Shown in pieces: positions 3,007 through 24,226 of a stretch of 34,426 nt of DNA. Origin of the DNA: Anaerolineae bacterium (GTDB lineage: Bacteria > Chloroflexota > Anaerolineae > Aggregatilineales > Phototrophicaceae); assembly GCA_013360465.1 (NCBI GenBank), contig JABWBO010000084.1:1-34426 (forward strand), read 5' to 3'. Both the position numbers and the translations under genes were made by a program. Positions within the stretch are counted from its first letter, which is position 1. The number at the start of each line of letters is the position of its first letter. A model generated the notes under the pieces. That model did not search any database and was not told the origin of the DNA. It saw only the letters and a list, made by a program, of their open reading frames with translations.

Positions 3007-3218
3007 TGCCATTTCCTCTCAGAACCCAACGAACCGTCGATTTCGCTGTGGCTGGCAATGCTCATCAGAGGTTGGTGTAAACTCTCTAAGGGAGCTTTGC
3101 TGGCACGGGCAGCGAGCTTCAAGGCGGGCGGGGGAGGGCACACCTCCTCCGCTCACCGCAAAAGCCGAATGTTGTTAGGCTAAGCAGGAAAGCCGTTGTT
3201 CACGTTTGGGGTAAGCGA

Positions 3219-4928
3219 TTACTGCGAGGAAATGAGAGAGAACCGATTGCCCGCTGGGTTCGGTTTGTATACAACTGGTGGAGCTAGTTTGGAGCCAGTC
3301 CGAACATCCAGCCAATGCGCTGGATGTTTGCATTTCAGGGGTTCCCTCACGTTCGCGTCGTGCTCTATCTGAGAGGGCGCTCGCAGTTCCAACACAATCT
3401 CGCCATCAACGTTCACAACCACCCGCTTGACCATGTGATGCAGCAGCTCTTTCTGTGCGCTGCGATCAAGTCGATTATACAGCGTTCCTACTTGCGCGAT
3501 GATTCCAAGTGCCGACTCCAAATTCTCGATGTGATACTGCTGCTGTTGTGTCATACCTTCCAGCGTCGCGCGTAGTTTCAAACGACGGTCCTGCCACTCT
3601 GCCCACAGCGAATTCCACAGGTCTTCCGAGATTTTCCCGGTCGCCAGCAGTCTCACTGTCCGAGCTTCTTCCTGATCGATGGCTTCCAGTGCCGCCACAA
3701 GCTGTTCACGCTCGCTTGGACGATTGTGACCCAGCTTTTCCGCCAGGTCGTGCGTATAGTACGCTCGGATCATGGGCAGCATGTCGGGATCAACCTGGAT
3801 GCGCTTCAGTTCATCGGGTATCTGTCGATCAATTCCATCACACTTGAAGTTTATGTTACTGCGCGGGATGCAGTAGTACGCCGTGCCACCTCCACGGCGA
3901 TAAGTGTTTGAAGTCGAACCCGTCAGTTTCGCTTCATTGCCATCTTCCCCAATGTAGAAGATGATCCCTTTAAGCAGGTAATCATGTCGGCGCTTCGCTA
4001 TTCGGTGACGGTTCCGCCGCTCCAGGATTTCCAACCCACGCTCGAATTCTTCGGTAGTGACGATGGGTTCCCAGTTGCCACGGATAGTTTTCGGAAGGAT
4101 TTTGTTCTTTTCGCTTACCACCCATCCCGCATACATCCAGTTGTGGAACACGTTCGAGATAGTGCTAATGTTTGCCCGACGAGTACCGCTGGGCAATATC
4201 TCAACAAATGGACGTCCGGTGCGGTGGTGATAGCCCCGCTCGTGCAGTTTTTCCGCAATCTCTTCAAGCGTCCACCTATCCTCTAACAGTAAATCCCAGG
4301 CGTAACGCCAGATCGTGGCGCGCTTGGGGTCTTGTTCGACCCATTTGTCGAAGCGCCCCAGATCATGTCGCTTTGACTCATCTGTTCGTGCGGTCACGTT
4401 GATGTAGCCTTCGGGAGCGTAGTTTGCATATCCGCCACCCCTGCGTTTTGCCTGCTGCCCACCGCGTGTGCGTATGCCTAACAGCGTTGATTCACGTCGG
4501 GCGAGCGTAAACGACAGCGCCACGATTACACGACCATCAGGATCCATTGGATCGAGATCTGGCGAGTTGGCAAATCTCACGCCGACTCCAAACTCATGCA
4601 ACTCGTCTATAGCTCGCAGGGCTTCGGTATCATCGCGTCCAAAGCGGTCGGCACGTTCCACTATCACATGTGAAAACTTCCCCGCCCGTGCGTCTGCCAG
4701 CAGTCGTTGGTAGCCGGTGCGATTCGGCGTCTTTCCTGTGAGTACATCGATGTATTCATCATAGACTGGCATGTCCGAGTGTGCGAGGACATTGCTTTCA
4801 ATAATGGCACGCTGGCGTGCGCGCGATAGTTCCGGCTTCTGATGATCTTCACTGCTCGTTCGTAGGTACACTGCCCAGCCCGGAGTCGGTGGAGTAGCTA
4901 GCCCTTTTTTCCGTTTTTGTGATGTCAT
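3219..4928 (-). CDS. Large serine recombinase (full-length copy of a tandem pair)
   Basis: A 569-residue site-specific serine recombinase. The resolvase domain starts WAVYLRTSSED, where the first Ser of R-T-S-S is the expected nucleophile, and contains VERADRFGRDD and LARRES. The Recombinase domain follows (WTLEEIAEKLHERGYHHRTGRPF). The zinc-ribbon segment is degenerate: the usual paired CxxC is absent after LLKGIIFYIGEDG and only scattered cysteines remain (YYCIP, FKCDG). A coiled-coil-like stretch rich in Glu, Leu and Gln comes next. Family role: integration, excision or inversion between att sites. Its first ~300 residues closely match the downstream-numbered neighbour at 4958-5899, and the two are 29 bp apart on one strand, so they are probably co-transcribed paralogues. 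Only a weak AGGG precedes the ATG. Confidence 0.88.
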   Translation of the reverse strand: MTSQKRKKGLATPPTPGWAVYLRTSSEDHQKPELSRARQRAIIESNVLAHSDMPVYDEYIDVLTGKTPNRTGYQRLLADARAGKFSHVIVERADRFGRDDTEALRAIDELHEFGVGVRFANSPDLDPMDPDGRVIVALSFTLARRESTLLGIRTRGGQQAKRRGGGYANYAPEGYINVTARTDESKRHDLGRFDKWVEQDPKRATIWRYAWDLLLEDRWTLEEIAEKLHERGYHHRTGRPFVEILPSGTRRANISTISNVFHNWMYAGWVVSEKNKILPKTIRGNWEPIVTTEEFERGLEILERRNRHRIAKRRHDYLLKGIIFYIGEDGNEAKLTGSTSNTYRRGGGTAYYCIPRSNINFKCDGIDRQIPDELKRIQVDPDMLPMIRAYYTHDLAEKLGHNRPSEREQLVAALEAIDQEEARTVRLLATGKISEDLWNSLWAEWQDRRLKLRATLEGMTQQQQYHIENLESALGIIAQVGTLYNRLDRSAQKELLHHMVKRVVVNVDGEIVLELRAPSQIEHDANVREPLKCKHPAHWLDVRTGSKLAPPVVYKPNPAGNRFSLISSQ

Positions 4929-4957
4929 GCTGGCTAACCCTACTTTGACACGCGATA

Positions 4958-5899
4958 CTACTTGGAGTGGTAACCACTGCTCAGAAGATGTTCAAGGGCG
5001 AGCAGTCCAGCCTCGAAATCTTCAGTTGAGACGAGCGGTTCCCAATCGCCACGCACAGTCTTCGGTTCGATCCCATCGCACTCGCTGACCACCCAACCTG
5101 CATATGTCCAATCCTGAAATCCACGCAGCAGTCCATTCGTGATGGGCTTACATTTGCCAAGCTTCGGACTGACGACGACAAACGGCTTGCCGGAACGGTG
5201 TCGATAACCACGTTCATGTAGGACAACAGCGATGTCCTGCAATGTCATCGTTCCTGTCAGCAGCATTGCCCATGCTTCTCTCCATATTGACGCGCGTTCC
5301 GGATCAGGTTCAATCCAGTGGTGAATACGCCCCAAGTCACTGCGCTGGTCGGGATCGCTTTGTCCCCAAGCATTGATATAGCCGTCGGGCGCTCGTCCGG
5401 CATATCCACCGCTCGCACGCTTCGCCTTCAGACCACTTTTCACCCGCTGACCCATGAGCATGGACTCGCGCTGTGCAAGGAAGAACGACAACGCAACCAC
5501 GACGCGATCATCCGGATCCATCGGGTCGAGGTCAGGCGCATTGGCAAACCGCACCGCAACACCGAAGGCGTACAGCTCATCAATTGCGCGCAGTGCTTCT
5601 GTGTCGCTGCGCCCGAATCGGTCGGCACGCTCTACGATGACGTGGGAGAACTTGCCAGCGCGTGCATCAGCGAGCATCCGCTGATAATCCTTCCGACGCG
5701 GGTCCTTGCCGGTCAGCACGTCAATGTATTCGCCATAGACCGGCATGTTGGAGTGTTCTAACACCTGCTTCTCAATCGTGAATCGCTGTCTTTCGCGCGA
5801 GAGTTCTGGCTTCTGATTCTCGTCGCTGCTGGTTCGCAGATAGACTGCCCATCCGGGCATGGGCGGGGGAGGTGGTGTTGCTTTTGCGGTTTGTGACAT
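4958..5899 (-). CDS. Serine recombinase, short paralogue lacking C-terminal domain
   Basis: A 313-residue protein with a complete resolvase domain (WAVYLRTSSDE, VERADRFGRSD, LAQRES) and Recombinase domain (MTLQDIAVVLHERGYRHRSGKPF). It stops at ALEHLLSSGYHSK, just where the zinc-ribbon and coiled-coil half begins in the paralogue. AAAAGGAT precedes the ATG by about eight bases. It lies 12 bp after a small gene and 29 bp before the long paralogue, so it looks like part of a five-gene operon. It may be a decayed duplicate, or a functional partner that works only with the full-length protein. The catalytic residues look intact, which argues against simple decay. Large serine integrases need the C-terminal half to choose att sites, so alone it would probably not integrate DNA (inference). 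Confidence 0.85.
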   Translation of the reverse strand: MSQTAKATPPPPPMPGWAVYLRTSSDENQKPELSRERQRFTIEKQVLEHSNMPVYGEYIDVLTGKDPRRKDYQRMLADARAGKFSHVIVERADRFGRSDTEALRAIDELYAFGVAVRFANAPDLDPMDPDDRVVVALSFFLAQRESMLMGQRVKSGLKAKRASGGYAGRAPDGYINAWGQSDPDQRSDLGRIHHWIEPDPERASIWREAWAMLLTGTMTLQDIAVVLHERGYRHRSGKPFVVVSPKLGKCKPITNGLLRGFQDWTYAGWVVSECDGIEPKTVRGDWEPLVSTEDFEAGLLALEHLLSSGYHSK

Positions 5900-6916: not shown

Positions 6917-7570
6917 ATGCCAGACATTCACATTGTCGTCATCGCCTCTAATGCTTTGAATCGCAGCGGTATTGAGTCGCTGATAGTCAAAGCGAGCCAG
7001 GGGATGAAAGCCACCGCATCATTCGGGGATCTGCCATCGGCAGATCGTTTTATGAAAGACAATCGGGTTGATATCCTGATCGTCGACGATACGCTTCCAC
7101 GTTCGGTTGATGTGGGTAGGGTGATTCGCAAGCTACTCACACAACATCCGAGCCTGGGCATCCTGATGGTTGCCAGTCGCCCAACGGGCAGCCTCATTCG
7201 GCGAGTGCTGGATTGTGGCGCACGGGGATTTCTCCACAAGGATGACGCAATGGACATCACGCTGGTAGAAGCCATCCACGGAATGCGAAAAGGCGGACTG
7301 TACTTATCGCGACGCGCCAATCAGCTTGTCCAGGTGCAGCGAACACTGCCGGAAAAGATGAGCGGCAGAGATGTGGACGTGCTTCAGCTCACGGCGGATG
7401 GGTTTGAGGCAAAAGAAATCTCAGCGCAGATTGGTGTCGGTGAGAAGACGGTCTACCGAATTCTGGATAACTTGCGGGAGCACTACGGCGCACAGAACAA
7501 CGCCAATCTCATCAATATTGCCTACCATGCGAAGCTGCTACCCAGCAACGATCCGAATGACCATGAGTGA
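6917..7570 (+). CDS. NarL/FixJ-type regulator with atypical receiver
   Basis: A 217-residue protein with a receiver-like domain (1-~125) and a LuxR-type helix-turn-helix at the C-terminus (MSGRDVDVLQLTADGFEAKEISAQIGVGEKTVYRILDNL). The phospho-acceptor position is kept (Asp57 in ILIVDDTLP) and so is the conserved Lys (GFLHKDD). The acidic pair expected after the first strand is missing (IVVIASN instead of I-D-D), so normal Mg-dependent phosphorylation is doubtful. AGGAGAAGG lies before the ATG. No histidine kinase is encoded nearby. Its paralogue follows 131 bp downstream, and the secretion genes follow that, so control of transfer genes is the natural guess. Confidence 0.85.
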   Translation: MPDIHIVVIASNALNRSGIESLIVKASQGMKATASFGDLPSADRFMKDNRVDILIVDDTLPRSVDVGRVIRKLLTQHPSLGILMVASRPTGSLIRRVLDCGARGFLHKDDAMDITLVEAIHGMRKGGLYLSRRANQLVQVQRTLPEKMSGRDVDVLQLTADGFEAKEISAQIGVGEKTVYRILDNLREHYGAQNNANLINIAYHAKLLPSNDPNDHE

Positions 7571-7701: not shown

Positions 7702-8343
7702 ATGGTGAACACCCACATCTTGATCGCAGACAGCAGCAGTCTCACGGTGGTCGGGGCAGAGTCGCTTCTCAGTCAGCGCCCTGATACAGTGATCACCAAA
7801 GCTGAGAATGGCGATAGTCTGCTGGGGCTGGCGAGCGAACTCAAACCCAGTCTGATCCTCCTGGGCGACCGCTTCGATCCTCTGTTCGATACATTGATCC
7901 TGGTTGAGCGCCTCCTGACAAGTAATCCGTCGCCTCGCCTCATCATCATGGGCGTGTCTACCGATGGATTGATCATCCGTGATCTGTTCGCCATGGGCGT
8001 GCGCGGATACCTGGCAACCGCTGACGATCTGTCCGAGTGCCTGCTGACAGCCGTCGAAATGGTGCTGCGGGATCGCCCGTACCTCTCGCCGACAGCGAAC
8101 GCAGAATATCTCATCACGATGCAAGGCAGCAAGCGAGATTGGCAGCTTGACGCCGAAGCACGTGCCATCCTGCGTCTGCTGGCAGGCGGTTGCACCCCCG
8201 GTCAGATCGCGTCCCGGTTAAAGCTGAAGCGCCGCCGTGTGTACTGGGTCACGGAAAAGATGCGCGCTCGGTTTGGCGCGATGACCAATGAGCACCTGAT
8301 CAGCCGCGCCGTCAATGAGGGTTTCGCGGGGTTTCCCGACTAA
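7702..8343 (+). CDS. NarL-like regulator with degenerate (pseudo) receiver
   Basis: A 213-residue paralogue of the preceding regulator. The receiver fold is suggested by THILIADSSSLTVVG and RLIIMGVSTDGLIIRDLFAMGVRGYL. The phospho-acceptor position aligns with Gly in LILLGDRF, and the conserved Lys is replaced (GYLATADD), so it probably works without phosphorylation. The C-terminal helix-turn-helix is AILRLLAGGCTPGQIASRLKLKRRRVYWV. Its ribosome site is inside the stem just upstream, so synthesis may depend on opening that stem. The stop codon is one base before the first CCGG box of the secretion-gene promoter. It could be the activator of that promoter (inference from position). Confidence 0.8.
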   Translation: MVNTHILIADSSSLTVVGAESLLSQRPDTVITKAENGDSLLGLASELKPSLILLGDRFDPLFDTLILVERLLTSNPSPRLIIMGVSTDGLIIRDLFAMGVRGYLATADDLSECLLTAVEMVLRDRPYLSPTANAEYLITMQGSKRDWQLDAEARAILRLLAGGCTPGQIASRLKLKRRRVYWVTEKMRARFGAMTNEHLISRAVNEGFAGFPD

Positions 8344-8344
8344 A

Positions 8345-8430
8345 CCGGAATCGTTCATCCGCGTCTGTACGATTCCCACCCCCAAACCGGAATCTTCCAG
8401 CTGTTCGCCACCCCCACTTTGCTAGGCTGA
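8345..8430 (+). promoter_or_regulatory. Promoter/operator block, copy A
   Basis: An 86-bp block that recurs without gaps at 18712-18797, with 70 identical positions by hand count. Two CCGGAATC boxes start exactly 42 bp apart (8345 and 8387), four helical turns. GTACGATTCC lies between them and is inverted relative to the boxes (GGAATCGT against ACGATTCC in this copy). TAGGCT near the right end fits a TAnnnT -10 element, but there is no good -35 at 17 bp, which points to an activator-dependent promoter. Alternatively GGAATC is an ECF-sigma -35 element. The gene it serves starts at 8462. Confidence 0.65.
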
Positions 8431-8461
8431 AACGAGCAGGAACAAAGCTGGGAGTGATGCG

Positions 8462-9679
8462 ATGCGACGACTGGTGCTGCTCATTCTGGCGGCGCTGTGC
8501 CTGACGGTATGGGCTGCCGCCTTTTTCTTGTTTCGGACCCAATCCACTTCGGTTGAGGTGGCGCTGCCGACGTTGATGGTGCTGCCGTCGCTTACGCCGA
8601 CGGATATACCCCCGCCGACACACATACCGACCGCTACCGCGACGCCGACGGTGTCCCCTACATTGACGCCGCTGCCGACCGAGACAGTGGTGCCGACGGT
8701 CAACCCTACGCTCTCCACTCGTGTATTGGAGATCGTGGCAGTCATGCCCGGCGTGTACGTCGCGCCGACGCTCACGCCATTTCCGCCTGGGACGATCCTG
8801 CTGCCCGCGCCGCCCAACCCGGTTGAACCGCTCCCAGATGCCACCCACACCGCGCCGCCCTTCAATGGCTGGTACAGCTTTGAATCGGATTACCCGACCG
8901 TGCAGTATTCGCCTCCGTGGACGCCGCGCCTGTCGCAGTATGCCAGTCGAGGACAGTATCACCGCACGGAAAGCGCTTCTGGGGTCGCGTCCTTCTCGTT
9001 TGAGGGCGAAGGACTGCGGATTCGGTATGTTGCCGCGCAAAACATGGGGGTATTCGAGATTGTCGTCGATGGCGTAGTCATCGACACGATAGATGCCTAC
9101 GCGGACGAACTGCGGTTTCCCGCCACACCGGTGTATTTCGTCGGATCGGGCAGTCACCGGATGGAGATCCGCGCCACCGGACGCAAGAACAACGCGAGTG
9201 AGGGGTATGTGGTCGCGCTGGATGCCGTGCAGGTGTTTCGTGGGGATGCTCATACCCTCATTATCCCGCCTTCTTCAATCACTACGACGCCCACGCCTGA
9301 AGCCCAACCCGCCGAACGGGTCGAACTGGTCGGCGCGCCGCCCACCGTGCAGCCTACCGGGACTCCGGTGCCTCCGCGCGTCATCACGGCGGCGGTCGTC
9401 ATTGCCTATGACGAGAACGGCAATCGCACGGTCGATCCGGCGGAAGGTGTCGCCGGGATTTCGGTGCGGGTGGTCGAGAGCAACACCAACCGCGTGATCG
9501 CCAGCGCGTTCACCGACGCGCGCGGCTACGTGGAATTCGAGCTGGTCACCGATTCGCCCGCTCGCATTGTCGTGCCGTACTTCGGCGAGACCTGGGAACT
9601 CCAGCGGGGCGGGAACAGCGCCGCGCCTGCCTACACCCTCCTGCTCACGCCCGGCAATCAGCCGGGGCTTATCCCCTAG
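8462..9679 (+). CDS. Membrane-anchored Thr-Pro-rich surface protein
   Basis: A 405-residue exported protein. The N-terminal segment RRLVLLILAALCLTVWAAAFFL is a signal anchor. A Thr-Pro linker (~residues 35-80) leads to a beta-rich domain (~140-265) with FEIVVDGVVIDTIDAY and MEIRATG, which resembles carbohydrate-binding-like sandwich modules in Chloroflexota surface proteins. A second Pro-rich linker precedes an SdrD/Cna-B-like domain (VVIAYDENGNRTVDPAEGVAGISV), usually a rigid calcium-binding stalk. GGGAG precedes the ATG. It is the first gene behind promoter copy A and is followed seven bases on by a lipoprotein gene. A role as the cell-surface part of a conjugation machine is inferred from context. 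Confidence 0.75.
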   Translation: MRRLVLLILAALCLTVWAAAFFLFRTQSTSVEVALPTLMVLPSLTPTDIPPPTHIPTATATPTVSPTLTPLPTETVVPTVNPTLSTRVLEIVAVMPGVYVAPTLTPFPPGTILLPAPPNPVEPLPDATHTAPPFNGWYSFESDYPTVQYSPPWTPRLSQYASRGQYHRTESASGVASFSFEGEGLRIRYVAAQNMGVFEIVVDGVVIDTIDAYADELRFPATPVYFVGSGSHRMEIRATGRKNNASEGYVVALDAVQVFRGDAHTLIIPPSSITTTPTPEAQPAERVELVGAPPTVQPTGTPVPPRVITAAVVIAYDENGNRTVDPAEGVAGISVRVVESNTNRVIASAFTDARGYVEFELVTDSPARIVVPYFGETWELQRGGNSAAPAYTLLLTPGNQPGLIP

Positions 9680-9686
9680 AGGTGAC

Positions 9687-10574
9687 ATGAAGAACCCCGT
9701 CTGGATGATCCCGGTTCTCTTCGGGCTGGCGGCGCTCGCCTGCACCGGCACGCCGTCTGCCATGCAGATTCTGGACGAGCCGGTCTACGTCTGCCCGACG
9801 GCAACACCGCGCGCGACCGATACGCCCCCGCCCACGTCGGTGCAGCCGCCGATCATCATCCCGCCTTCCGGGTGGGCGACGCTCACGCCGGTGCCAGGCT
9901 GTATCTGGAACGGCACGCTGTGTGCGACCAACACGCCTTACCCAGGCGGCGTCTACAGCACACCCGGCTACAGTCTTCCCGGCGCAACCTCGACACCGCG
10001 CCCGACGACGACACCCTATCCGACGCCGACGCCGTTTGTGATGCGTTCGCCGCAGGACTTCTTCGTCGGGGATGCGATCTACACGGGTGGGTTTGTGAGC
10101 GGCGTCAATGCCCGGCTGCGCCTGCTCAATGTCGTCACACTGGCTGCTTCAGCCGCGTCAGATGGGAGTCCGCGCAGCATCGTTCGCTGGGAGATCGAAA
10201 TCAGGAATGTCGGTTCTGTCGCCTACGAGGTGTTCCCCGCCTGGCAGATGGTTGTGTCAACAGTGACCACAGGGAGTGGGGATGTGGCAGGCATTTGGGG
10301 CGCGAGTCGCGATGCCGCCGCCGAAGCGGGACTCTCGACGCTGCTGGAAGCGATCACGCTCGCGCCAGGCGAGACACGGCTGTTCGCACTGGCCGCCTAC
10401 ATCCCGGCAGGGACGGCGCGGCGCTTCGCCTATGCGCTCGATCCCACCACACGACCTGTCCCGGCAACGCCCGGTGTGCCCGGAACCAACCTGATGGTCT
10501 GGACGAATACCACCAACACGATTTGCGCGGGCGATCTGGCAGAACCGCCGGTGCTGCCCACGCCGCTGCCGTAG
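9687..10574 (+). CDS. Putative lipoprotein of the secretion operon
   Basis: A 295-residue protein starting MKNPVWMIPVLFGLAALAC, a signal peptide ending in a lipobox-like A-L-A-C. The mature part has Pro/Thr repeats (PTATPRATDTPPPT, RPTTTPYPTPTP) up to ~residue 120, then a beta-rich domain (VRWEIEIRNVGSVAYEVFP and LAPGETRLFALAAYIPAG) that looks like an immunoglobulin-like or DUF4352-type fold. The ATG at 9687 follows AGGTGA closely, and an upstream in-frame ATG at 9567 is inside the preceding gene and would destroy the signal peptide, so it was rejected. It may scaffold the envelope complex; exact function unknown. Confidence 0.72.
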   Translation: MKNPVWMIPVLFGLAALACTGTPSAMQILDEPVYVCPTATPRATDTPPPTSVQPPIIIPPSGWATLTPVPGCIWNGTLCATNTPYPGGVYSTPGYSLPGATSTPRPTTTPYPTPTPFVMRSPQDFFVGDAIYTGGFVSGVNARLRLLNVVTLAASAASDGSPRSIVRWEIEIRNVGSVAYEVFPAWQMVVSTVTTGSGDVAGIWGASRDAAAEAGLSTLLEAITLAPGETRLFALAAYIPAGTARRFAYALDPTTRPVPATPGVPGTNLMVWTNTTNTICAGDLAEPPVLPTPLP

Positions 10575-10592
10575 CGAAAGGAGTCTTCAGTC

Positions 10593-13148
10593 GTGCCCAT
10601 CGTCGATGATGTCCTGCGCGGACTGCAAATCCAGATTGACACGCTCTGGTACAACCTGCTCTTTTCGCTGGCAGGGATGCACTGGAGCATTCAGCGCGCC
10701 TTCCTGATGATGGGTTACACCATCGAACTGATGAATCAGTGGCTGATCGACAACGCCTTCACGCCCCTCATTCAGCAGACCAACGCCAGCTTGCAGTTAG
10801 CCGTCGGCCTGTCGTTCATCGTCGCGCTGCTGGTGCTGGGGATCACGTATCTGCTGGCGGCATTTGCGCGCATGCGGGTGGTCGAGCCGAAAAGCGCCAT
10901 CGCCTGGTATCTGGCGGGCGCGCTGTTCTTCGCGCTGGGGCCGCAGCTCTATCAGGGCATGACCGATTTCCGGCGCGATCTCTCACAGGCCTTCTATGGC
11001 AGCACACTCAGCGGGCTGCAAGGCGCGACCGGATCGGCCTTCGACTCGCTCAACAGCGTGGACAGCGCCGATCTGGGCCTGATCAACCTGTGCGATAACT
11101 TCGGCTCTTACATGCCCGTCTGGAGCCCGACCGTGGATGGGCTGGACGTGGCGCTGGCCTATCTGCGCGCCGACGGCATCGACCTGATGGGCTATCCCTC
11201 CACACCGCGCGATCCAGCGTGTCAGCCGCACACGCCCGATCCGGTGTCGGGGTTATGGACTGCCGGGACAGTTCCATGGGAATGGCGGCGACCGGGGTCG
11301 TTCTTCGCCAATGACCGTGAGCCAGTCTTCTTCACCGTGATGACCGATGCCGAACGCGCCGCGTCGATCAGCCTGGCGTCATCTGCGCAGGGGCGATTGC
11401 TCACCGCCTGGCCGCTGATCCTGTTCGGCGTGACCGAGCAGCTCGTTTATCTGCTGCTGACCATCGCTCAGGGACTGACCTTCATCTCGTTTGGCGTGGC
11501 GATCCTGTTCGCGTTCTTCAAGAAGACAGAAGTGATTGCGCGTTCCATCGTCGATCTGTGGATTGAGTTGATCGTCCAGACGGTGATAATTGCGCTCATT
11601 CAGGCGCTGGTCGTCACCTTCTTCCTGAGAGGCACGACCAGCGGCAACGGGATTGTGGTGCTGGGTATCGGCTTGATCTGCCTGATCTTCATGGTCATCG
11701 TGCTGTGGTCGGGTGTCAAAGCCGTATGGAATTCGTTCAACCGGCTGTTCAATGCCTTTGGGCAGGCGACGGGCGGCGCGGTCATCAGCCCCGGAACGGC
11801 AGCCGTCACCGCTGGCGCAGCGGCAGTGGGCGTTACCGGCGCGGTCGTCAGCATGGGATCGAGCGCAACGGCAGGCATGTCCGCCCTGATGAACGGCGCG
11901 ACTCCGGCACAGGCAGCGGGACTGACGTTTGGCGGCGTGCAGCCGCTGGCGGATGCAGCGCGCACCATCACCCGCCTGCCCAGTCTGCGCGGCACGCCGA
12001 TGGGCGATGCGGCGGAGCAGTTCACCGAAGCGGCGATCACGCGCCGCGTGGCGCGGGAGATCCCCCTCGTCGGCGGAGCCGTCGGTCCGATGATCGGCGC
12101 GAAGCTGCTCACGGATTACGACCCGAACAAAGCCGAGTATGACGACAAGGGGCGGCTGATTGGGCGTCCGATGCTGGTCCCGGCGGTGGGCGAAGGGCTG
12201 GAGGCGCTGACCTATCCGCTGGGCAAACGACCGGCCAAGCGGCGCGCGGTCGATGGCGAACTCGACTGGTTCGAAGATGAAGAGGGCGAACTCTTCCCCG
12301 GCTTCACCGCCGTCAAGCGCAAGCGTTCCGGGATGTTCACGCCGGTGGCAGCGACACAGACGCCTACGGCAGCCTCGGCGGATGAAGAGATCGTCCGCGA
12401 GCGGCAGACCTATGCTGACGACATGCGCGGGGAAGAGATGGAGGAACACATCGCGGACGTTGCCCGCTCGACCTCGGCAAAGAGCGGCGGCACGGCAGGA
12501 TCAGAGCGCATTGAGGGCGCAGCCGGGCGGCTGGAAAAGAGCGCTGAAGCACTGGAGCGAGCTGCGGGGTCGCTGGTCGGAAGCCTGCGGATCAGCGGAA
12601 GCGCGGATGTGAGCAGTGTCATGGGCGATGTGATGCGACTGCTGGGTGGACGGGGCATCAACGGTGTTGACCATCTCACCGTTGCCGGGCTGATGGCGCA
12701 GGCGGTCGGGATGACGCCGCTTGACGATGGCAAACCGCCGGTGCGTGAAGACCTCGCCCGTTTCGGTTTGTTCGTGGACAGCGCGGCTCGGTTGGGCCTC
12801 TCGCCGGAACAGACCGAGCGCGTCGGACGGGAAGTCAAGGAAACGCCGGATCGACGCCTGACGCGGGACACCCGCACTGAACTGGTCGAAAGCGCAGTGA
12901 TGACCGGTCGTTCGCGCGAAGCAGCTGAGCGCGAAGTCAACCGGTTGGAGATTGCCGCGCGGTTGCTCCCGAACGAGCTGACCGCGTACGGCTCGATGCC
13001 TGTGCCGTCGGTCACGGTCGAGCCAGAGGTGAAGGTCGAACCGATCATCAATGTCAATACGGACAGTCAGGATAGTGATTACGACGCGGCGATGCGCTCC
13101 AGCGCGTCGATGAGCGGCAGCGGGGCGGTACTGGGAGGAACAGAATGA
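10593..13148 (+). CDS. VirB6/TrbL-like polytopic membrane protein
   Basis: An 851-residue protein with a GTG start and AAAGGAG nine bases upstream. The first ~380 residues have several hydrophobic segments (around 67-92, 102-123, 268-310, 322-347 and 353-374), typical of VirB6/TrbL channel proteins of type IV secretion. A small-residue-rich stretch follows (Ala/Gly/Thr, ~390-440), then a long hydrophilic tail (~450-851) with charged helical segments, as in TrbL proteins of Gram-positive and Chloroflexota elements. The stop overlaps the next start (ATGA). Assignment rests on topology, length and neighbours, since VirB6 proteins have little sequence conservation. No lytic or enzymatic domain was seen in the tail. 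Confidence 0.72.
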   Translation: MPIVDDVLRGLQIQIDTLWYNLLFSLAGMHWSIQRAFLMMGYTIELMNQWLIDNAFTPLIQQTNASLQLAVGLSFIVALLVLGITYLLAAFARMRVVEPKSAIAWYLAGALFFALGPQLYQGMTDFRRDLSQAFYGSTLSGLQGATGSAFDSLNSVDSADLGLINLCDNFGSYMPVWSPTVDGLDVALAYLRADGIDLMGYPSTPRDPACQPHTPDPVSGLWTAGTVPWEWRRPGSFFANDREPVFFTVMTDAERAASISLASSAQGRLLTAWPLILFGVTEQLVYLLLTIAQGLTFISFGVAILFAFFKKTEVIARSIVDLWIELIVQTVIIALIQALVVTFFLRGTTSGNGIVVLGIGLICLIFMVIVLWSGVKAVWNSFNRLFNAFGQATGGAVISPGTAAVTAGAAAVGVTGAVVSMGSSATAGMSALMNGATPAQAAGLTFGGVQPLADAARTITRLPSLRGTPMGDAAEQFTEAAITRRVAREIPLVGGAVGPMIGAKLLTDYDPNKAEYDDKGRLIGRPMLVPAVGEGLEALTYPLGKRPAKRRAVDGELDWFEDEEGELFPGFTAVKRKRSGMFTPVAATQTPTAASADEEIVRERQTYADDMRGEEMEEHIADVARSTSAKSGGTAGSERIEGAAGRLEKSAEALERAAGSLVGSLRISGSADVSSVMGDVMRLLGGRGINGVDHLTVAGLMAQAVGMTPLDDGKPPVREDLARFGLFVDSAARLGLSPEQTERVGREVKETPDRRLTRDTRTELVESAVMTGRSREAAEREVNRLEIAARLLPNELTAYGSMPVPSVTVEPEVKVEPIINVNTDSQDSDYDAAMRSSASMSGSGAVLGGTE

Positions 13149-14482
13149 GCGAGAGTTTGCGCTTTCACACGGTGGACGAACTGCGGGCGCTTTCGCTCGA
13201 TGAGTTGCGCGCGTTGTGGGAGCTGGTGCCGACCGACCGGCAGCGCGGCTACCGTTCCGCCTATGAACGGGAGGTCAAGTGCGCGAATGCTGAAGGCTCG
13301 GACGCGAAAGAACGCAGGATCGCGCTGGCGCTGCTCAAACGCTACGACGAAGCCGGGCTGGTGCCCGTCGGCACGCGCTGGGCGCGCGCACCCCGGCGGG
13401 TGCAGGAGGCGGCGCGACGCGGTGAGCGTGTGGGTGAAGCTGAAGCGGGGACAGATGCCCGCAGCGGCAAGCCATCCGGCAAAGTGCTGGCGGTGCTGGG
13501 CACGTTCCTGATTGGGATGGTCGCGCTGCTGCTCGTGCGCGGCATGGGCGGAGGAGAAGCGCAGTCCACGCCGGACATGACAGTCACGGTGACGCTGCCC
13601 GCAGGCATCACGCCGACGCCGCTGGCGCTGGAAGCGCAGGATGAGGTCATCGAAGGCGGCGATAACAGCCGCGCGCCATTCTACCCGATCAACCTGCAGA
13701 TCAGCCTGCCCGACCAGACGGTGCCGCGCGTGTGGGTGGTGCAGCGCCGGGCAGTGCGTGCCTCAGAATGGAACTTCGACCCGAACCCGGATACCGCGTC
13801 GTTCCTGAACGGGATGAGCGTGCGCCCGGTGATCGGCGTCCCCTGGTCGGAGGAGAATGCCGCCTGGTTCGCGCAGATCGGCGCAGGCGCGGAATTTCGC
13901 TTACAGATGAACACTGGCGCGATCCTGACCTTCACCTTTGAGGACAGGCGCGACGTGCGGCGCAGCGACACGGGCATCTTCCGCCAGGTCAATCCGGGTC
14001 TTGTCCTGCTGCTGCTCGGTGAGACCGATGAGGAAGGTTTAACGACTGGAACTCGCACGCTGGTCACCGCCGCTTACCCGGTCGAGCAGGAATTGGGGCG
14101 ATCCGGTGAACTCATTGGCGCGCTCGCGCAGTCAGTCGCTGCTGTTACGCCAACCTCACTGCCGACCGCAAACCCGACAGCGAGCCTGTTCATCGGGCTG
14201 GATGTGCAGGTCGTGAGCGTCACAACGCTGCCGGGGCAAATCACCGTGCGACTGCGCCTGTACAACGGCGGGAGCGCCCCCCTTCCCATCACGCCGGATG
14301 ATGTGTGGTTGGCGCTCGGCTATGCAGAAAACCCGCCGGGTCCGCGTGTGCCAGCGGAAGGTATGCTGCCGTTCGACCTGCTGCCCGGTCAGGCTGCGGA
14401 TATGACGCTGACTTGGTTGTGGCAAGGCGAACCCTTTGGGAGTCTTGGAGTCGGCGGCTACCGCTTTGCTTTGCAGTTTTGA
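13145..14482 (+). CDS. Bitopic membrane protein, sortase-fold-like ectodomain (tentative)
   Basis: A 445-residue protein. Residues 1-110 are charged and cytoplasmic (VDELRALSLDELRALWELVP). One membrane segment follows (VLAVLGTFLIGMVALLLVRG, ~113-134), then a Pro-rich spacer. The outer part contains GAEFRLQMNTGAILTFTFED, IFRQVNPGLVLLLLGE and TRTLVTAAYP, an order of strands that recalls sortases. The T-L-x-T-C catalytic motif is absent, so it would not be an active sortase. A C-terminal beta domain (QVVSVTTLPGQITVRLRLYNGG) resembles the one in the lipoprotein two genes upstream. It is translationally coupled to the VirB6-like gene. It could be a VirB8-like assembly factor by topology. The fold call is tentative. 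Confidence 0.65.
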   Translation: MSESLRFHTVDELRALSLDELRALWELVPTDRQRGYRSAYEREVKCANAEGSDAKERRIALALLKRYDEAGLVPVGTRWARAPRRVQEAARRGERVGEAEAGTDARSGKPSGKVLAVLGTFLIGMVALLLVRGMGGGEAQSTPDMTVTVTLPAGITPTPLALEAQDEVIEGGDNSRAPFYPINLQISLPDQTVPRVWVVQRRAVRASEWNFDPNPDTASFLNGMSVRPVIGVPWSEENAAWFAQIGAGAEFRLQMNTGAILTFTFEDRRDVRRSDTGIFRQVNPGLVLLLLGETDEEGLTTGTRTLVTAAYPVEQELGRSGELIGALAQSVAAVTPTSLPTANPTASLFIGLDVQVVSVTTLPGQITVRLRLYNGGSAPLPITPDDVWLALGYAENPPGPRVPAEGMLPFDLLPGQAADMTLTWLWQGEPFGSLGVGGYRFALQF

Positions 14483-17158: not shown

Positions 17159-17176
17159 TTGTTTCCTCTTTGTTCG

Positions 17177-18532: not shown

Positions 18533-18592
18533 TGACTGCACCTTTTTGATTTGTTGCGATGGTACACAAAATCGGCACTCAGGGATCGATGC

Positions 18593-18711: not shown

Positions 18712-18797
18712 CCGGAATCCTCCATCGCCCAATGTACGATTCCTAACCTCAAACCGGAATCTTCCAGCGGTTCGGCACCCTCGCTTTGCTACCCTGA
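18712..18797 (+). promoter_or_regulatory. Promoter/operator block, copy B
   Basis: Second copy of the 86-bp block seen at 8345-8430. Boxes CCGGAATC start at 18712 and 18754, again 42 bp apart, with GTACGATTCC between and CTTTGCTA next to a TACCCT -10-like element. It precedes the VirB2-like, VirB3-like and VirB4-like genes, so both secretion blocks seem to be under the same control. Confidence 0.65.
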
Positions 18798-18936: not shown

Positions 18937-19176
18937 GTGAATCTCGCACAAGCCATTCAAGACCTGTTCAACGACATTCGGGATACGGCGCAGATCATCG
19001 CGCCTATCGCAGCCATCATCGGGTTCCTGGGATTGGGCATCATGTACATGGGGAGCAGCTGGCCCCTGATCTCCGACTGGAAGCGCGACAACCCAAAAGC
19101 CGCCAACCAGGTCGTGATCGGTCTGCTGTTCGTCGTCTTCGCCTCCAGCGTCACCGCGCTCATCTCCTTCGCCTGA
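18937..19176 (+). CDS. VirB2/TrbC-like small membrane protein (putative pilin)
   Basis: A 79-residue protein with two hydrophobic segments: IIAPIAAIIGFLGLGIMYMG and VVIGLLFVVFASSVTALISF, separated by a short charged loop (SDWKRDNPKAA). This is the usual layout of VirB2/TrbC-type pilins and of the small membrane proteins before VirB3/VirB4 in conjugative elements. I chose the GTG at 18937 because GGAGGA lies nine bases upstream. A longer frame from 18823 would add 38 residues with no such site and no sequence character, and is rejected. The next gene is VirB3-like, which supports the call. Confidence 0.72.
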   Translation: MNLAQAIQDLFNDIRDTAQIIAPIAAIIGFLGLGIMYMGSSWPLISDWKRDNPKAANQVVIGLLFVVFASSVTALISFA

Positions 19177-19242
19177 TCACGCTCGTCGGCAGCGCGGGGG
19201 CGCTCGACCAGCCTCCGCGCCTTTCATTCCTGGAGGCTGTCG

Positions 19243-19731
19243 ATGGCAGCGGATTTCAAATCACACATTCTCAGCCGTGACGAGAAAGGCTTCGGCGGCA
19301 TCCCCTTCAAGCGGCTGCTGCTGGGCGGCATCGGCGGCGGCTTTGCCTACACGCTGTTCCGTTTCGCGCTGCCTGATCTGGCTATCCCGGTGGGGGTCGC
19401 GGTCGCCATCTTCCTGATCGCGTCTACCGCTCCGCGCGGCGGCTTGCCGCTGTGGATGAGGCTGTGGCTGAACCTGCGCGGTGCGATCCTGCTGGCCGCT
19501 GCTCAGAACCGCACCGGATTGGCGGGTGAACTGGCGCGAATGCTCAGCCTGCCGTCCAACCTGGCGGCGCTGGATGCCGAGGTGGTGTTCGCGCCGCCTG
19601 CCGGAATGGTGGAGGTTGATCTGTCGGAGTGGGTGACGTTTGCCCGTGCTCGTGATCTGGATCGGGGTGATGGGCTGGTGTTCGTCAATGCACCTTTAGG
19701 TGCGCCGACGCTGGAAGAGGAGGCGCTGTGA
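19243..19731 (+). CDS. VirB3/PrgI-like membrane protein
   Basis: A 162-residue protein with an N-terminal soluble stretch, two close hydrophobic segments (RLLLGGIGGGFAYTLFRFAL and VGVAVAIFLIAST) and a soluble C-terminal half rich in Leu, Ala and acidic residues. This is the topology of VirB3/TrbD/PrgI proteins, which are encoded right before VirB4 and anchor it to the membrane. GGAGG precedes the ATG. The stop overlaps the GTG start of the VirB4-like gene (GTGA), so the two are translationally coupled, as expected for direct partners. Confidence 0.72.
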   Translation: MAADFKSHILSRDEKGFGGIPFKRLLLGGIGGGFAYTLFRFALPDLAIPVGVAVAIFLIASTAPRGGLPLWMRLWLNLRGAILLAAAQNRTGLAGELARMLSLPSNLAALDAEVVFAPPAGMVEVDLSEWVTFARARDLDRGDGLVFVNAPLGAPTLEEEAL

Positions 19732-21668
19732 GCCAGGTTCGCACGTTCCTGATCGAGCCATTCGACATCATGCTGCACGCCACCGAAGAGGGCGTCAACG
19801 CTTTGCAAGCGCGCTTCTCAACCTGGCTGCGGACGCTCTCCGACGAAGCGCGCTTTCTGTGCTGGCAGATGCCCGCCACGCTGGATACCAAGATCGCCGC
19901 CTTGAATGACATGGCGGAAACCATTGCCGATGAGCAGCGGCGCGATCTGCTGGTTGAATACCGCCGCGACTACGAGCGCATGAACCTGAGCGCCGAGTAT
20001 CAGCGGGCGCTGTGCGGGATGGCGCTGTGGAGTGATGGCACGACGCAAGCGTCAGCGCGAGCGCTGGCGGGCGGATTGATGTCGGCATTCGATACGCCGG
20101 TGACGGAGGCGGCGTTCCCGGCGCTGTTTGAGGGCCGCTACGAATTGCACGACCGTCCGTTCTGGCATCTCGCGCCATCGGGTCGTCCGGGTGGTCGTCC
20201 GTTCTGGGCGGTGCTGACTTCGTATGAATTCGCGCCTTCGACCTGGAACTTCTTCCGCCCGCTGCCACCCCTGCTCCGGCTCAACTTCCCGCTGGCGCTG
20301 GCGGTCGATATTCCTAAGACCTACGACCGCAATGCTGCCATCGATGCGATTGAGAACATCATTCAGGCGTATCAGGTGCATCTGGCAGGCGTGCGCGGGG
20401 AGGACTCGCGCTCGGTGCAGCGCGTGACCGACTGCCGCCGGGCGCTCCAGGAGATCAACAACGGCGATGCCCTGCATCTGGTGCAGATCGCCATCGCCGT
20501 GGCTGCCGACGATCTCGACACGTTGAAGGAGCGTCTGCAGGCGGTCATCAGCGAAACGCGAGCGTGGTTCAGTCTGCGTCAGGAGGTTGGAGAGCTGCTC
20601 TCGCGGGCGGTGGGCTTCTTCACGGCGCGCCGGACGAAAGACATCAACCTGCCGACGACGACCTGGCCGGTCACCTCACGCGAGCTGGCGCTGATGCTGG
20701 CACCGCTCGGCTATCGCAAGCTCTCGACCACCGACGGCGTGATGCGCGGGGAAGCGGTCGGTGCAGCGTATCCCGTGTTTCACAATTCCTGGAAGGACAA
20801 ACGCGCCACACATGAAATCTGGGTGGGCGTCAGCGGATTTGGAAAGACATTTGGAGTCAACTGCTACCTGACCCGCGAATACGCCGAGAATGGCATCCCC
20901 TTCGACCTGCTCGAACCGATGGGACACGGGCGGCATCTGGCGGAAGCCTTCGGTTTGCCTTGGTACATCCTGAGCGCAAAAGCGACCAAGCTCAATCCGC
21001 AGGATGTGATGTTCCCAACCTTACTCGAACAGGTCAGCCATACCACGCGCCTGTACGAGACGGTGCTGGGGCGGCCCTTAAGCGGCGGGCAGCGGGAGAA
21101 CCTCGAACGCGGACTGCTCGGCGAGGCGCTGGAGACGCTCTATCGCGGCTTTCCCGATCTGAACCGCGTTACACCCGATCTCGCGCCAACGTGCGAGACG
21201 GTCTGTGATGTGCTGGCGAGCCTGGGCGACAAGCCCGCCATTCAAGCGATTGCCCGCGATCTGGCGGATGAGATCGCGGGACTGTGTACCGGGTCAGGTC
21301 CGTGGTCGGCGTTCCTCAATGGCACGACCAATATCGACCTGACGCGCGGGGGGCGGGCGTGGATTCAGCCGCGCGTGTTCTCGTTCCATGAACTGGAAGG
21401 CGACCCGATTCTCCAGGCGCTGGCGTACACCCAGGTCTTGAGTGCTATCCGTCGTGACAGCCTGATCGACGAACAGCCCCGCATTATCGCCGTCGATGAG
21501 GTCTACCGCCTGATGCGTCATCCCTCGCTCTTGGATTTTCTGATCGAGGCGGCGAAGACCTTCCGAACACGGCGCAAAAAGGCCCTGATGGTTGATCAAA
21601 CACGGCGCAAAAAGGCCCTGATGGTTGATCAATGGATGCAGCACTCGCCGCAAGTTGTGGCGGGTTAG
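19728..21668 (+). pseudogene. VirB4-like secretion ATPase, C-terminally truncated
   Basis: A 646-residue frame with a GTG start. The N-terminal ~330 residues are the variable VirB4 domain. Walker A is GVSGFGKT (~residues 366-373) and Walker B is RIIAVDEVYRL (~585-595). VirB4 ATPases power assembly and substrate transfer of type IV secretion. The protein should continue well past FRTRRKKALMVDQ with a conserved Thr-Gln motif and C-terminal helices. Instead that 11-residue stretch is duplicated in frame, and the sequence ends after only 12 unrelated residues (WMQHSPQVVAG and stop), in DNA shared with the convergent recombinase gene. The sensor-like and C-terminal parts are lost, so activity is unlikely unless an intact copy lies elsewhere. 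Confidence 0.82.
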
Positions 21669-23622
21669 CGCGTTCGGCTTTGAATTCTTCCGTCCCCCGC
21701 CAGTGCGTATACCGTCCATAGGGTTTCTTACCCGCATAGGCGCTGCGCCAGTGCCCGTTCCCGTACTTATAGGCATAGCGTTCTTGCAGCGCCTTCCACG
21801 AATAATCGGGGAAGGTGCGAAGGATAATCCACTGATCGACATCCCCCTCAACCATCGTCCGCAGCTTTTCCAAATCGTCTTCTTCCCAGAAATAGCCGAG
21901 ACTCTTGTGGGTTGTGCTGCGACGTGAGGTTGTGCCGTCGCGCCAGCACACCACTGCCTGTTTGGTATGTCGGCTGATTTTGTTGACCTTCACGTAGTGA
22001 GCGAATGCCTCGAACAGCGCTCGCTTTTCTTCGCTCGGCACATCGTCCCATCGGGCAATGACCATCTCCAGTGCCGGACGTGCCTCGACCAGTGAGCGCG
22101 AGCGCTGTTTCCCCGACTCAATTCGCGCGAGTTCGGTCCGCAAATTGGCGATCTCGTAATCCGCCTTCTCGAAATGTGCCTGAGCGCGGGCGACCATCTC
22201 GGCATTGGAGAGCAGTCCCAAGCTGGCGATGATGTTGTCTTTCGCCGTTTCCGCCTGCCGGATCGCTGCCTTCAGCCGCCGCACCTCAGATTGATCGACA
22301 TTCTCAAAACTTGCCAGCGCTGCTGCCCACGCTGCCTCGTCAATGGTTGTCGCCCGCAGCCGTTCGAGCAGCATCTCGTCGATCAATCCGTCGAGGATGA
22401 ATGCGCGCAGTTTCCATACGGTTGAACGGTACGGATACTCATTGAGCACGTACTCGTACTTCTCGGCATGTGAATTCCAGATACCAGCCAGCCGTTTATG
22501 GGGACAGGCGGGCAAATCGTCGGTGTAGATCAACCCGGAATAGGTCGGCGGTTCGGCGCAGCGTTCCGCCTTATCATGCCGGATCCACGGGCGATACGGG
22601 ACGTAATCCGGGTTCGGCTCACCGTGAAAGTCGGTCGGTGAGAGGCGGTTGAAGGCATACATGAACAGATCAAGCGGGATGATCGGCTCGTGGTTGTTCC
22701 ACTGCACCACCGCACCCATATGCACCCAATGCCCGATATATGCGACATTGATGAGCATGTATTCCAACCCTGTATGGGACGGAGTCAGCTTGCCTGTGAC
22801 CAGCGAACGACGGTCGAGATGATCCGTCGCCTTGAATCCCTCTGGCACCATCCCCTCGACAATATCGGGGAAATACGGACCGTTGCGTTCGATAAACCGC
22901 CACGTCTGAAACAGGTTGCCGTTGTTCTCGCGGAACAACTCAAAGTAGCGCAGCGCCACATCAGCATACAAATCGAAGCGCTTGTACTTGCGGAAGTCGG
23001 GGTTGCGCTGCTCATTCACCTTCGCGCGGCAGTCCACCATGAAACCGGGGAGAATCTTGCGTCCCGACCACATACCACCGGCGCTCCGGCTGTGCCGCGC
23101 CTTGACCAAACGCCCCCGAATCTGGTATTCGAGGTAATCGGCGGCGCGCTGGGCTTCCTCGCGGAACATCTTAACATGCGACGATCCCATGATCGGGTGC
23201 GCGAAGTCGTAGACCATGCGCGGGGTCATCACCTGCACGTTGTGTGCCCGGCACGCTTCGATGAACTTGTTGGTCTCGATCATCGTCACGTCACGGAAGA
23301 AGCGATCCACATCTTGGGCGGCGACCAAGCCAATCTGCCCCGCTTCGATCATCTGCATGAGCTGCGTCATGCCTTTGCGTTCGTGAATCTTCTTGGTTCC
23401 GCTCACGGCGGCATCGGCATCGATCATATGAACATTCTCGCGTAACCAGCCGCGATCCAGCAGATGCTCGATCATGTCGATGGTTTGGAGCGTGGTTGAG
23501 ATGTTGCCAATCTGCCCTTCGGACGACTGGCGGTAGTAGACGGCTGCCGGGCGACCGAGCGGCAAGGGCTGTGCCTTGTACGGATCAATCGGCTGTTCAG
23601 GGCGTTTCAACGGACGCGGCAT
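21484..23622 (-). CDS. Large serine recombinase (third), chimeric C-terminus
   Basis: A 712-residue serine recombinase. The resolvase domain has VYYRQSSEGQ (nucleophile Ser in R-Q-S-S) and AAQDVDRFFRD. The Recombinase domain follows, then a coiled-coil region (VARAQAHFEKADYEIANL) and a C-terminal region with many Trp and Tyr. AAGGAGAA precedes the ATG. It is not closely similar to the pair at 3.2-5.9 kb. Its last ~60 residues are antisense to virB4, including the duplicated segment (DQPSGPFCAVF twice), so the native end was probably lost when it was joined to virB4. Inferred role: integrase of an element inserted into, or recombined with, virB4. Confidence 0.85.
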   Translation of the reverse strand: MPRPLKRPEQPIDPYKAQPLPLGRPAAVYYRQSSEGQIGNISTTLQTIDMIEHLLDRGWLRENVHMIDADAAVSGTKKIHERKGMTQLMQMIEAGQIGLVAAQDVDRFFRDVTMIETNKFIEACRAHNVQVMTPRMVYDFAHPIMGSSHVKMFREEAQRAADYLEYQIRGRLVKARHSRSAGGMWSGRKILPGFMVDCRAKVNEQRNPDFRKYKRFDLYADVALRYFELFRENNGNLFQTWRFIERNGPYFPDIVEGMVPEGFKATDHLDRRSLVTGKLTPSHTGLEYMLINVAYIGHWVHMGAVVQWNNHEPIIPLDLFMYAFNRLSPTDFHGEPNPDYVPYRPWIRHDKAERCAEPPTYSGLIYTDDLPACPHKRLAGIWNSHAEKYEYVLNEYPYRSTVWKLRAFILDGLIDEMLLERLRATTIDEAAWAAALASFENVDQSEVRRLKAAIRQAETAKDNIIASLGLLSNAEMVARAQAHFEKADYEIANLRTELARIESGKQRSRSLVEARPALEMVIARWDDVPSEEKRALFEAFAHYVKVNKISRHTKQAVVCWRDGTTSRRSTTHKSLGYFWEEDDLEKLRTMVEGDVDQWIILRTFPDYSWKALQERYAYKYGNGHWRSAYAGKKPYGRYTHWRGTEEFKAERANPPQLAASAASIDQPSGPFCAVFDQPSGPFCAVFGRSSPPRSENPRARDDASGGRPHRRR
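21566..21631. repeat. 33-bp perfect tandem repeat at virB4/recombinase junction
   Basis: Two adjacent identical 33-bp units (21566-21598 and 21599-21631), each containing CGGCGCAAAAAGGCCCTGAT. They keep both overlapping frames open (11 residues each). virB4-like sequence stops right after the second unit. This may be a duplicated attachment-site core or a slippage product. Confidence 0.9.
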
Positions 23623-23720: not shown

Positions 23721-23918
23721 CTAGCCCTGCGGTGAGTCACTATCACTCGCGGGGTCAGCCGGATCGGGGTGTACCACCACCTCGGTTCGGCGTTCAATAG
23801 AATCAGTATAGGCATTTCCTTCCAAGCGCGCAACAATCCGCATGATCTGGCGGCACACATCCACCAGATTGATGCGTTCTTCGTTAGCTGAGGGCGTATC
23901 GCGCAGTTCATCGTGCAT
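23721..23918 (-). CDS. Small hypothetical protein upstream of third recombinase
   Basis: A 65-residue acidic protein starting MHDELRDTPS, with a helix NLVDVCRQIMRIVARLEG-like stretch and an Asp/Pro-rich end (HPDPADPASDSDSPQG). The ATG at 23918 has GGGGGTGAAC just upstream; a TTG three bases earlier is less likely. I do not recognise it. It is followed by a terminator and then the recombinase gene on the same strand. An accessory role in recombination is possible, from position only. Confidence 0.5.
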   Translation of the reverse strand: MHDELRDTPSANEERINLVDVCRQIMRIVARLEGNAYTDSIERRTEVVVHPDPADPASDSDSPQG

Positions 23919-24035
23919 CAATGTTCACCCCCGTCGGGCTATTCAGTTGTTGAGAAATGGCGTGCTGCCGGTTCATCGTTTGCTCCGGGTTTTACCGATG
24001 AACTCAGCATATCAAAGTGGGATCGTCAAAAACCC

Positions 24036-24108
24036 GGAATCTTACAGTTTTGGGTTGGTAATCTTCCAGTCGGCGCTGTTAATTTTACAGTTTTGACTGA
24101 ACGATTCC
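24036..24108. promoter_or_regulatory. Cluster of operator-like boxes, copy C
   Basis: Four related boxes lie at near two-turn spacing: GGAATCTTACAG (from 24036), TAATCTTCCAG (from 24059), AATTTTACAG (from 24081) and CGATTCCGG (to about 24110). The TTMC cores start at 24042, 24064, 24085 and 24105. AATCTTCCAG is also the second box of the two secretion promoters. The 23919-24226 stretch holds no other supported feature; an AT-rich spot and a 20-codon frame near 24165 were not accepted. Confidence 0.5.
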
Positions 24109-24226
24109 GGTTTTTCTTGCGCTTGAGGCGAACATAAGGCAGTTCTGACACACAATGTAAATATGTGATGACTACAAGGTACCCGATTATCGAAACTGGA
24201 TCAGCCAAATCGTGCAAAGCATTGCG

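Follow-up and report, generated by a model that had tools for sequence, protein, structure and literature searches.

A putative activator-dependent promoter array shared by conjugation operons and the recombinase of a gene-interrupting insert in mobile elements of Chloroflexota

The window analysed here comprises 34,426 nucleotides of an Anaerolineae bacterium (assembly GCA_013360465.1, contig JABWBO010000084.1) and carries, in front of two secretion operons on the plus strand, two related blocks, A (8345-8430) and B (18712-18797). The preliminary description of this DNA had reported that the copies align without gaps, with 70 of 86 positions identical, and both the alignment and shuffle controls bear this out: in three dinucleotide-shuffled versions of the window the top 86-mer pair reaches 49, 47 and 46 identities, and the only other pairs above 51 in the real sequence are paralogous stretches (82, 66, 63, 61 and 61). 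The open reading frame of a LuxR-type protein ends at 8343 and adjoins block A, so the remark that its stop codon touches this copy also holds. Operon A (8462..14482, plus strand) encodes a 405-aa protein, hydrophobic at its N-terminus and including a Thr/Pro-rich stretch, followed by three more ORFs, all with weak Pfam matches only. Operon B (18937..21668, plus strand) consists of genes for a TrbC/VirB2-like pilin (Pfam TrbC, 1.9e-5), a 162-aa protein and a VirB4-like ATPase that is truncated at its 3' end. The leader between promoter B and trbC (18823-18936) holds many copies of GTGCCGGATGACCCC or close variants, which could encode either a leader peptide or an N-terminal extension of the pilin. 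In some relatives trbC itself is interrupted past codon 49 by about 2.5 kb (L152:645-3175 and L160:13723-16250; also L071 and L088); a group II intron (Rfam RF00029) lies at the 3' side of the interruption in L152 and L160, and L071 and L088 were seen on one side only.

Each block contains an array built from three copies of a 14-bp box, CCGGAATCnTCCAG, spaced by about two helical turns and set at a fixed distance from an extended -10 element that lacks a -35 partner. The string CCGGAATC starts at 8345 and 8387 in block A and at 18712 and 18754 in block B, in agreement with the reported distance of 42 bp in both copies, and has an additional plus-strand copy at 24034. Between the boxes, GTACGATTCC is present as described (8367 and 18734), and is accounted for by the 14-bp box itself in inverted orientation (CTGTACGATTCCCA), on a centre where relatives have a direct box. 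In block A, box 1 (8345..8358, plus strand, direct, CCGGAATCGTTCAT, PWM score 16.1 bits) lies at -42 from box 3 (8387..8400, plus strand, CCGGAATCTTCCAG, 23.6 bits), and box 2 (8365..8378, minus strand, inverted, CTGTACGATTCCCA, 12.1 bits in that orientation) starts at -22, as does the direct box 2 of relatives; from the start of box 3 to the end of the extended -10 (8418..8428, plus strand, TTTGCTAGGCT) there are 42 bases. Block B has the same geometry, with box 1 at 18712..18725 (plus strand, direct, 19.2 bits), box 2 at 18732..18745 (minus strand, inverted, ATGTACGATTCCTA, 6.0 bits inverted and thus slightly below the cut), box 3 at 18754..18767 (plus strand, CCGGAATCTTCCAG, 23.6 bits) and the extended -10 at 18785..18795 (plus strand, TTTGCTACCCT). 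Within 8250-8500 and 18620-18950, a promoter scan detected no sigma-70 site that includes a -35, in keeping with the earlier observation that neither copy has a good one. By eye, class-specific inverted repeats lie over the -10 and the presumed start in many relatives, at both blocks (for example TACGCTGAACACAGCGTA); one of them, ACCCTGA-N7-TCAGGGT, occurs in relatives and in block B (18785-18815) and was not seen in block A. Such repeats are possible candidates for a repressor site.

The geometry of the array is conserved among related elements. A search that permitted nine distances between box 3 and TTTGnTAnnnT placed the box 42 bases upstream, measured from box start to -10 end, at all 33 distinct sites. 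A second set comprised 33 promoters in which the position of box 3 was set by search, near-identical sites from sister genomes included. Upstream of box 3 these promoters hold 54 further boxes, confined to positions -21/-22, -42/-43 and -63, with no box elsewhere within 95 bp; the chance expectation is a mean of 0.66 and a maximum of 2 in 50 shuffles, or about 1.3 estimated from whole loci. The preliminary description had counted a lack of conserved box spacing in relatives among the findings that would refute its reading. On examination the positions of the boxes proved conserved, but the particular value did not: among 28 pairs of boxes 1 and 3 above the cut, the spacing is 43 bp in 23 and 42 bp in 5, so that 42 bp is a local variant of a usual 43, and an exact 42-bp spacing was rejected as a defining feature. 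At -22, 18 promoters have a direct box and 6 have an inverted one with an identical start, as expected of a dyad; the dyad of the CCGGA-type box is imperfect (p 0.038), and the boxes of other sequence dialects, such as GTGTAATTCTACAC and CTGAAATTTTACAG, look more symmetrical by eye.

The motif CCGGAATCNTNCA has 25 occurrences in the genome of origin, compared with 0 for a reversed control. Within the genus, 14 of 15 genomes contain it, though many single matches there seem unrelated to promoters; single matches inside genes were not counted as promoters. When genome contigs were scanned for two motifs at any of 31 gap lengths, 33 stretches were recovered, of which the 11 at 43 bp all belong to Chloroflexota (CH1, OLB13, CFX9, CH4, BIN16, SJ143 and RH21), and the remaining 22 have different spacings and come nearly all from other phyla. 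Five of the latter, Bacteroidota loci with pairs at 42 bp, were set aside as short tandem repeats within open frames, with no -10 at the distance typical of the regulon. Viral contigs contained no such box pairs, and a viral origin was rejected on this ground. Of 98 genomes in the family, 28 contain a match to a profile of the proposed regulator (E up to 1e-25), and plasmid records yielded three distant response regulators, at no more than 31% identity.

Four classes of downstream genes recur behind these promoters in related elements, and the window holds three of them, A, B and D. The class C operon encodes a ribbon-helix-helix protein (Pfam), a small protein and a VirD4/TraG coupling protein, the last assigned by a Pfam T4SS-DNA_transf match of 2e-35 (L068:3668-5725). 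The small protein is called relaxase-like here from its place and an HxH motif recognized by eye, and has no Pfam or NCBIfam family match. Class D consists of serine-recombinase genes. Contig C98 begins with the same 99 bases that end the window, a sequence matched in full nowhere else in the genome, and C98 in turn shares a 99-base overlap with C150, on which a class C promoter lies (C150:11754, minus strand). From these overlaps we infer that the window, C98 and C150 probably represent one element.

Assuming a transcription start 7 nt downstream of the -10, the boxes are centred near -41.5, -63.5 and -84, which would match the layout of class II activation by dimers arranged on one face of the DNA. 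The sequence features of a class II promoter, a site at the -35 place and an extended -10 with no -35, are present, the start site being assumed. We therefore regard it as probable that the block is an activator-dependent class II promoter, served by the NarL-type regulator of the element itself and common to one conjugation regulon; the regulator would bind as one dimer per box and would activate rather than repress. Alternatively, the array could be an operator for repression, with the regulator or another protein covering the -35 region until a signal arrives. Box 3 does occupy the -35 place, and in several relatives inverted repeats seen by eye also cover the -10 and the presumed start point, yet the promoter scan found no -35 that could be blocked, and class II activation by SetCD is reported to use just such a site beside the -35 place (PMC4344509), so that repression seems unlikely.

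The gene that precedes block A (7702..8343, plus strand) encodes the proposed regulator, a 213-aa NarL-type protein with a pseudo-receiver. No Pfam domain matches it and its NCBIfam NarL-type matches fall below the cut-offs, but the predicted structure (pLDDT 84.3, pTM 0.72) combines a receiver fold with a LuxR/GerE-type helix-turn-helix; the top Foldseek matches are LiaR, spr1814, RcsB and VraR (E 9.7e-11 to 5.6e-10), and a profile match to NarL of 1.6e-16 agrees with the fold and the helix-turn-helix in placing it in the NarL/FixJ family. In an alignment of 22 family members against NarL as the reference, from which the partial regulator L094 was excluded, none retains the phosphoacceptor aspartate (glycine in 20, one asparagine, one histidine), which makes the protein a pseudo-receiver variant of NarL/FixJ. 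Receivers without this residue are known as aspartate-less or pseudo-receiver regulators (PMC4395418, PMC12632262); the present family differs from those in its NarL-type C-terminus and its occurrence in conjugative elements of Chloroflexota, and raises the question of how a receiver without a phosphorylation site is controlled.

The boxes follow this regulator. In a comparison of 40 regulators with their promoters, GGAATC occurs in box 3 for all 14 that have threonine, methionine or isoleucine at one column of the recognition helix and for none of the other 26, which have arginine (22), glutamine (1) or a residue that was not read (3) and include five (L079, L182, L184, L187 and L191) whose promoters were apparently misplaced by the script. 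The 14 form one clade (FastTree support 0.994), and the match between regulator and box should thus be counted as one main evolutionary event; with that weight, the sequences support the earlier proposal that a LuxR-type protein drives the block. A Thr-type regulator was not found in the draft genomes G001 and G009, despite their CCGGA-type promoters.

A different reader of the boxes could be the first response regulator (6917..7570, plus strand; Pfam Response_reg and GerE) or a factor of the host cell, the second regulator then having another role. The first regulator is adjacent and keeps its phosphoacceptor aspartate in the window. Within elements with CCGGA boxes, however, its mean identity is 44% (49% without doubtful ORFs) compared with 75% (77%) for the second, which is the better conserved in 84 of 91 pairs, or 25 of 28 once doubtful first ORFs are removed, and it is the second that the boxes track. 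A single host factor, for its part, does not explain the several dialects that coexist within one genome, as in the window and contig C155. Both versions strike us as quite improbable compared with direct reading by the NarL-type protein.

The promoters of one element also resemble one another. For the seven elements in which both promoters A and B were in hand, a sample less tied to the Thr/Met/Ile clade, the true pairing of boxes 1 to 3 is the best of all arrangements (1 of 5040); box 3 alone ranks 6 of 5040 and the 8-bp spacer between boxes 2 and 3 ranks 73, and no pairing is seen from box 3 to the -10 (752), in the -10 (3600) or in the 20 bp downstream (3968). One of the seven, G005:C499, shows no likeness between A and B, with 27 mismatches. 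Contig G003:C44 has CTGAAA-type boxes at each of its promoters A, B and C. The notion of a switch that coordinates the transfer apparatus, put forward in the preliminary description, gains support both from this covariation and from the recurrence of the array before the two secretion operons, the operon for the ribbon-helix-helix and coupling proteins, and the recombinase genes. The likeness of the spacer within elements could also reflect gene conversion. It is nevertheless very improbable that the repeats are simply recombining sequences (attachment sites, iterons or gene conversion tracts) with no regulatory role, as might be supposed for a mobile element that has several recombinases and similar A and B arrays, since the likeness lies in the boxes and weakly in the spacer but not in the -10 or downstream, the boxes keep a fixed position relative to the -10, and the junctions of the insert described below do not involve the boxes; on the latter two grounds the attachment-site and iteron readings were rejected.

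A third array, of class D and absent from the preliminary description, lies on the minus strand at 24006-24110, with its boxes at 24034-24110. The outermost box (24097..24110, CCGGAATCGTTCAG, 22.2 bits) is at -63 from box 3 (24034..24047, CTGTAAGATTCCGG, 22.3 bits, position 0); between them, CTGTAAAATTAACA (24077..24090) is recognized by its place in a 20/21/22-bp series and scores below the PWM cut, and CTGGAAGATTACCA (24056..24069; 5.4 bits, also below the cut) is assigned mainly by place. The extended -10, TTTGATATGCT, is at 24006..24016, and all these features are on the minus strand. Downstream on the same strand are a 65-aa ORF (23721..23918), with a similar ORF in the corresponding place at five other recombinase loci (L070, L072, L088, L114 and L125), which we take as a candidate directionality factor, and a large serine recombinase (21484..23622; Pfam Resolvase, 5e-12) at the edge of an insert. 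The best NCBIfam match of the recombinase is XisF (7e-11), but at 41.7 bits against a cut-off of 375 it falls short of membership in that equivalog. Elements of the fdxN type interrupt genes and carry the recombinase XisF. The present insert is like them in this best match and in that excision would restore a reading frame, and unlike them in that the interrupted gene belongs to conjugation and the recombinase scores so far below the cut-off.

The insert divides the VirB4-like gene after ...ALMVDQ, where intact relatives continue with QMSVFLEG..., and its left junction has the core ATCA (21628..21631, plus strand). Left junctions occur at the same site in the window and in C75, C40, C155, G003:C13, G070:C6, G073:C327, G009:C212 and G084:C620; right junctions were found in G003:C13, in C98/C150 of the same genome as the window and in G005:C237, all with the core ATCA, and in G009:C212 with ACCA. 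The insert has defined ends, empty sites occur in other elements, and the joined flanks are in frame. On G003:C13 both junctions lie on one contig, 26,014 bp apart, and the joined flanks give 708 open codons, within the 706-728 codons of intact relatives. In the contig chain of the window the insert measures 32,926 bp (about 33 kb) and the joined flanks are open for 738 codons, the greater length being due in part to 33 bp that are exactly duplicated in tandem where the left flank meets the insert. This duplication repeats the end of the VirB4-like gene in frame (21566-21631). Contig C110 was considered as an excised allele and rejected, with identities of 82.6-85.0% against three interrupted copies and of 76% against the C150 fragment. 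The identity of the VirB4-like protein itself rests on weak profiles below the cut-offs (NCBIfam, E 0.0065; Pfam P-loop_TraG, E 0.0038-0.024 in five intact relatives), with which its position after TrbC and Walker-type motifs seen by eye agree; a PDB sequence search gave no match, and the structure model (pLDDT 32) was too poor for a fold check. Among the genes within the insert are those for a type II restriction pair, for primase-like and actin-like proteins and for a 332-aa protein that is 38% identical over 176 aa to the product of the second gene of the class C operon; the 332-aa protein is likewise called relaxase-like from its place and an HxH motif seen by eye, and has no Pfam or NCBIfam family match. 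In its gene content the insert resembles an integrative mobilizable element (IME).

Among related recombinase genes, 24 of 29 have a regulon-type promoter upstream, as judged with a PWM built from class A boxes only, with eight doubtful box-3 strings left out, and at a lenient threshold that 2% of shuffles exceed. Seven of the 29 upstream regions have two such promoters, and several of these pairs differ in dialect by eye; in four of the seven both box scores are positive, at least one of them modest, and in three one score is negative. At L067:7252 and 7384 (G000:C8), the recombinase gene has tandem promoters whose boxes are seemingly of two dialects, CTGGACGATTCCGG and CTGAAATATTTCAG. In the C155 insert one recombinase promoter is in the dialect of its host. 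A strict match of dialect between recombinase promoter and host is not general: in G070:C6 the recombinase boxes are CTGGAATATTCCGG, compared with TTGTAATCCTGCAC in the A promoter of the host. The recombinase there is 94% identical to that of the window and has one internal TGA, so that it has perhaps decayed.

These data can be combined into a scheme in which dimers of the NarL-type regulator (7702-8343) would bind the three 14-bp dyads about two helical turns apart and, from the innermost box at the -35 place, would recruit RNA polymerase to the extended -10 by class II activation. The common array before the secretion operons, the ribbon-helix-helix/coupling-protein operon and the recombinase would constitute a single conjugation regulon. 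The pseudo-receiver protein, at high level or on an unspecified signal, would fill the arrays and turn on A, B, C and the recombinase; the insert would then be excised, the VirB4-like ATPase restored, and transfer could proceed. As the same switch also stands before the recombinase, transfer and gene repair may be induced together. A further step, which we offer tentatively and consider somewhat doubtful, the more so given the weak VirB4 profiles and the one junction that departs from ATCA, is that a parasite element residing inside the VirB4-like gene of its host obeys the transfer activator of that host, excises, restores the ATPase and travels along; with dialects differing between hosts, its recombinase may carry promoters of more than one dialect and in this way serve several of them.

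The SetCD proteins belong to the FlhDC family. In the ICEs of the SXT/R391 group, SetCD is reported as an element-encoded class II activator with a site near the -35, acting on transfer genes and on a mobilizable island (PMC4344509). The proposed system would be similar in combining an element-encoded factor, a site near the -35, transfer genes and an island, but SetCD works as a complex of two proteins and its site spans 19 bp, whereas here a NarL-type protein would act on an array of 14-bp boxes, three or four in number and spaced at about 21 bp, in dialects that are specific to the element. AcaCD of IncA/C plasmids, also of the FlhDC family, is reported to bind the xis promoter of the hitchhiking island SGI1 (PMC4605294), and the activator of a helper acting on the promoter of an island's excision gene is what we would propose here; SGI1 is chromosomal and has its xis controlled, while the present island lies within the VirB4-like gene of the helper and it is the recombinase promoter that carries the boxes. 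By fold and profile our regulator is of the NarL type and not a member of the FlhDC family, so it may work like SetCD and AcaCD though unrelated to them in family. Streptococcal IMEs with serine integrases are reported to disrupt conserved ICE genes, the targets being traG/virD4, maff2 and snf2, and oriT for those with a tyrosine integrase (PMC5357655, PMC5704250, PMC7563843), and it has been hypothesized that induction of conjugation triggers IME excision and repair of the gene (PMC5357655, PMC5704250). The insert described here differs from these in its target, a VirB4-like gene, in its phylum and in having a common operator as a possible link.

A literature search limited to titles and the starts of abstracts, with most subscription papers outside its reach, returned no report of this arrangement; none of the open papers returned on Chloroflexota conjugative elements treats this subject by title, and none of those returned on tandem sites and coevolution comes close by title. 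The present analysis provides a cis-regulatory map of conjugation genes for these elements and turns the published hypothesis on ICE induction and IME exit into a concrete prediction that names the promoters, the junctions and the recombinase involved, for which the arrays may supply a cis-regulatory basis of induction-coupled repair. The CCGGA, CTGAA and GTGTA dialects, with more than one in a genome, also form a natural series of regulator/operator pairs for the study of how separate conjugation switches evolve.

Other parts of the window carry further genes. Genes for ParB- and ParA-like proteins and two more serine recombinases occupy 983-5899, with paralogous recombinase stretches at 4798 and 5772 (66 of 86 identical), and minus-strand genes for an HSP90-like and a TPR protein lie between operons A and B (14597-18541). 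Towards the right end, a 489-aa GyrB-like ORF (31889-33358) with HATPase and DNA_gyraseB domains is found near a 300-bp repeat whose copies, at 31510-31809 and 33783-34082, are 81% identical.
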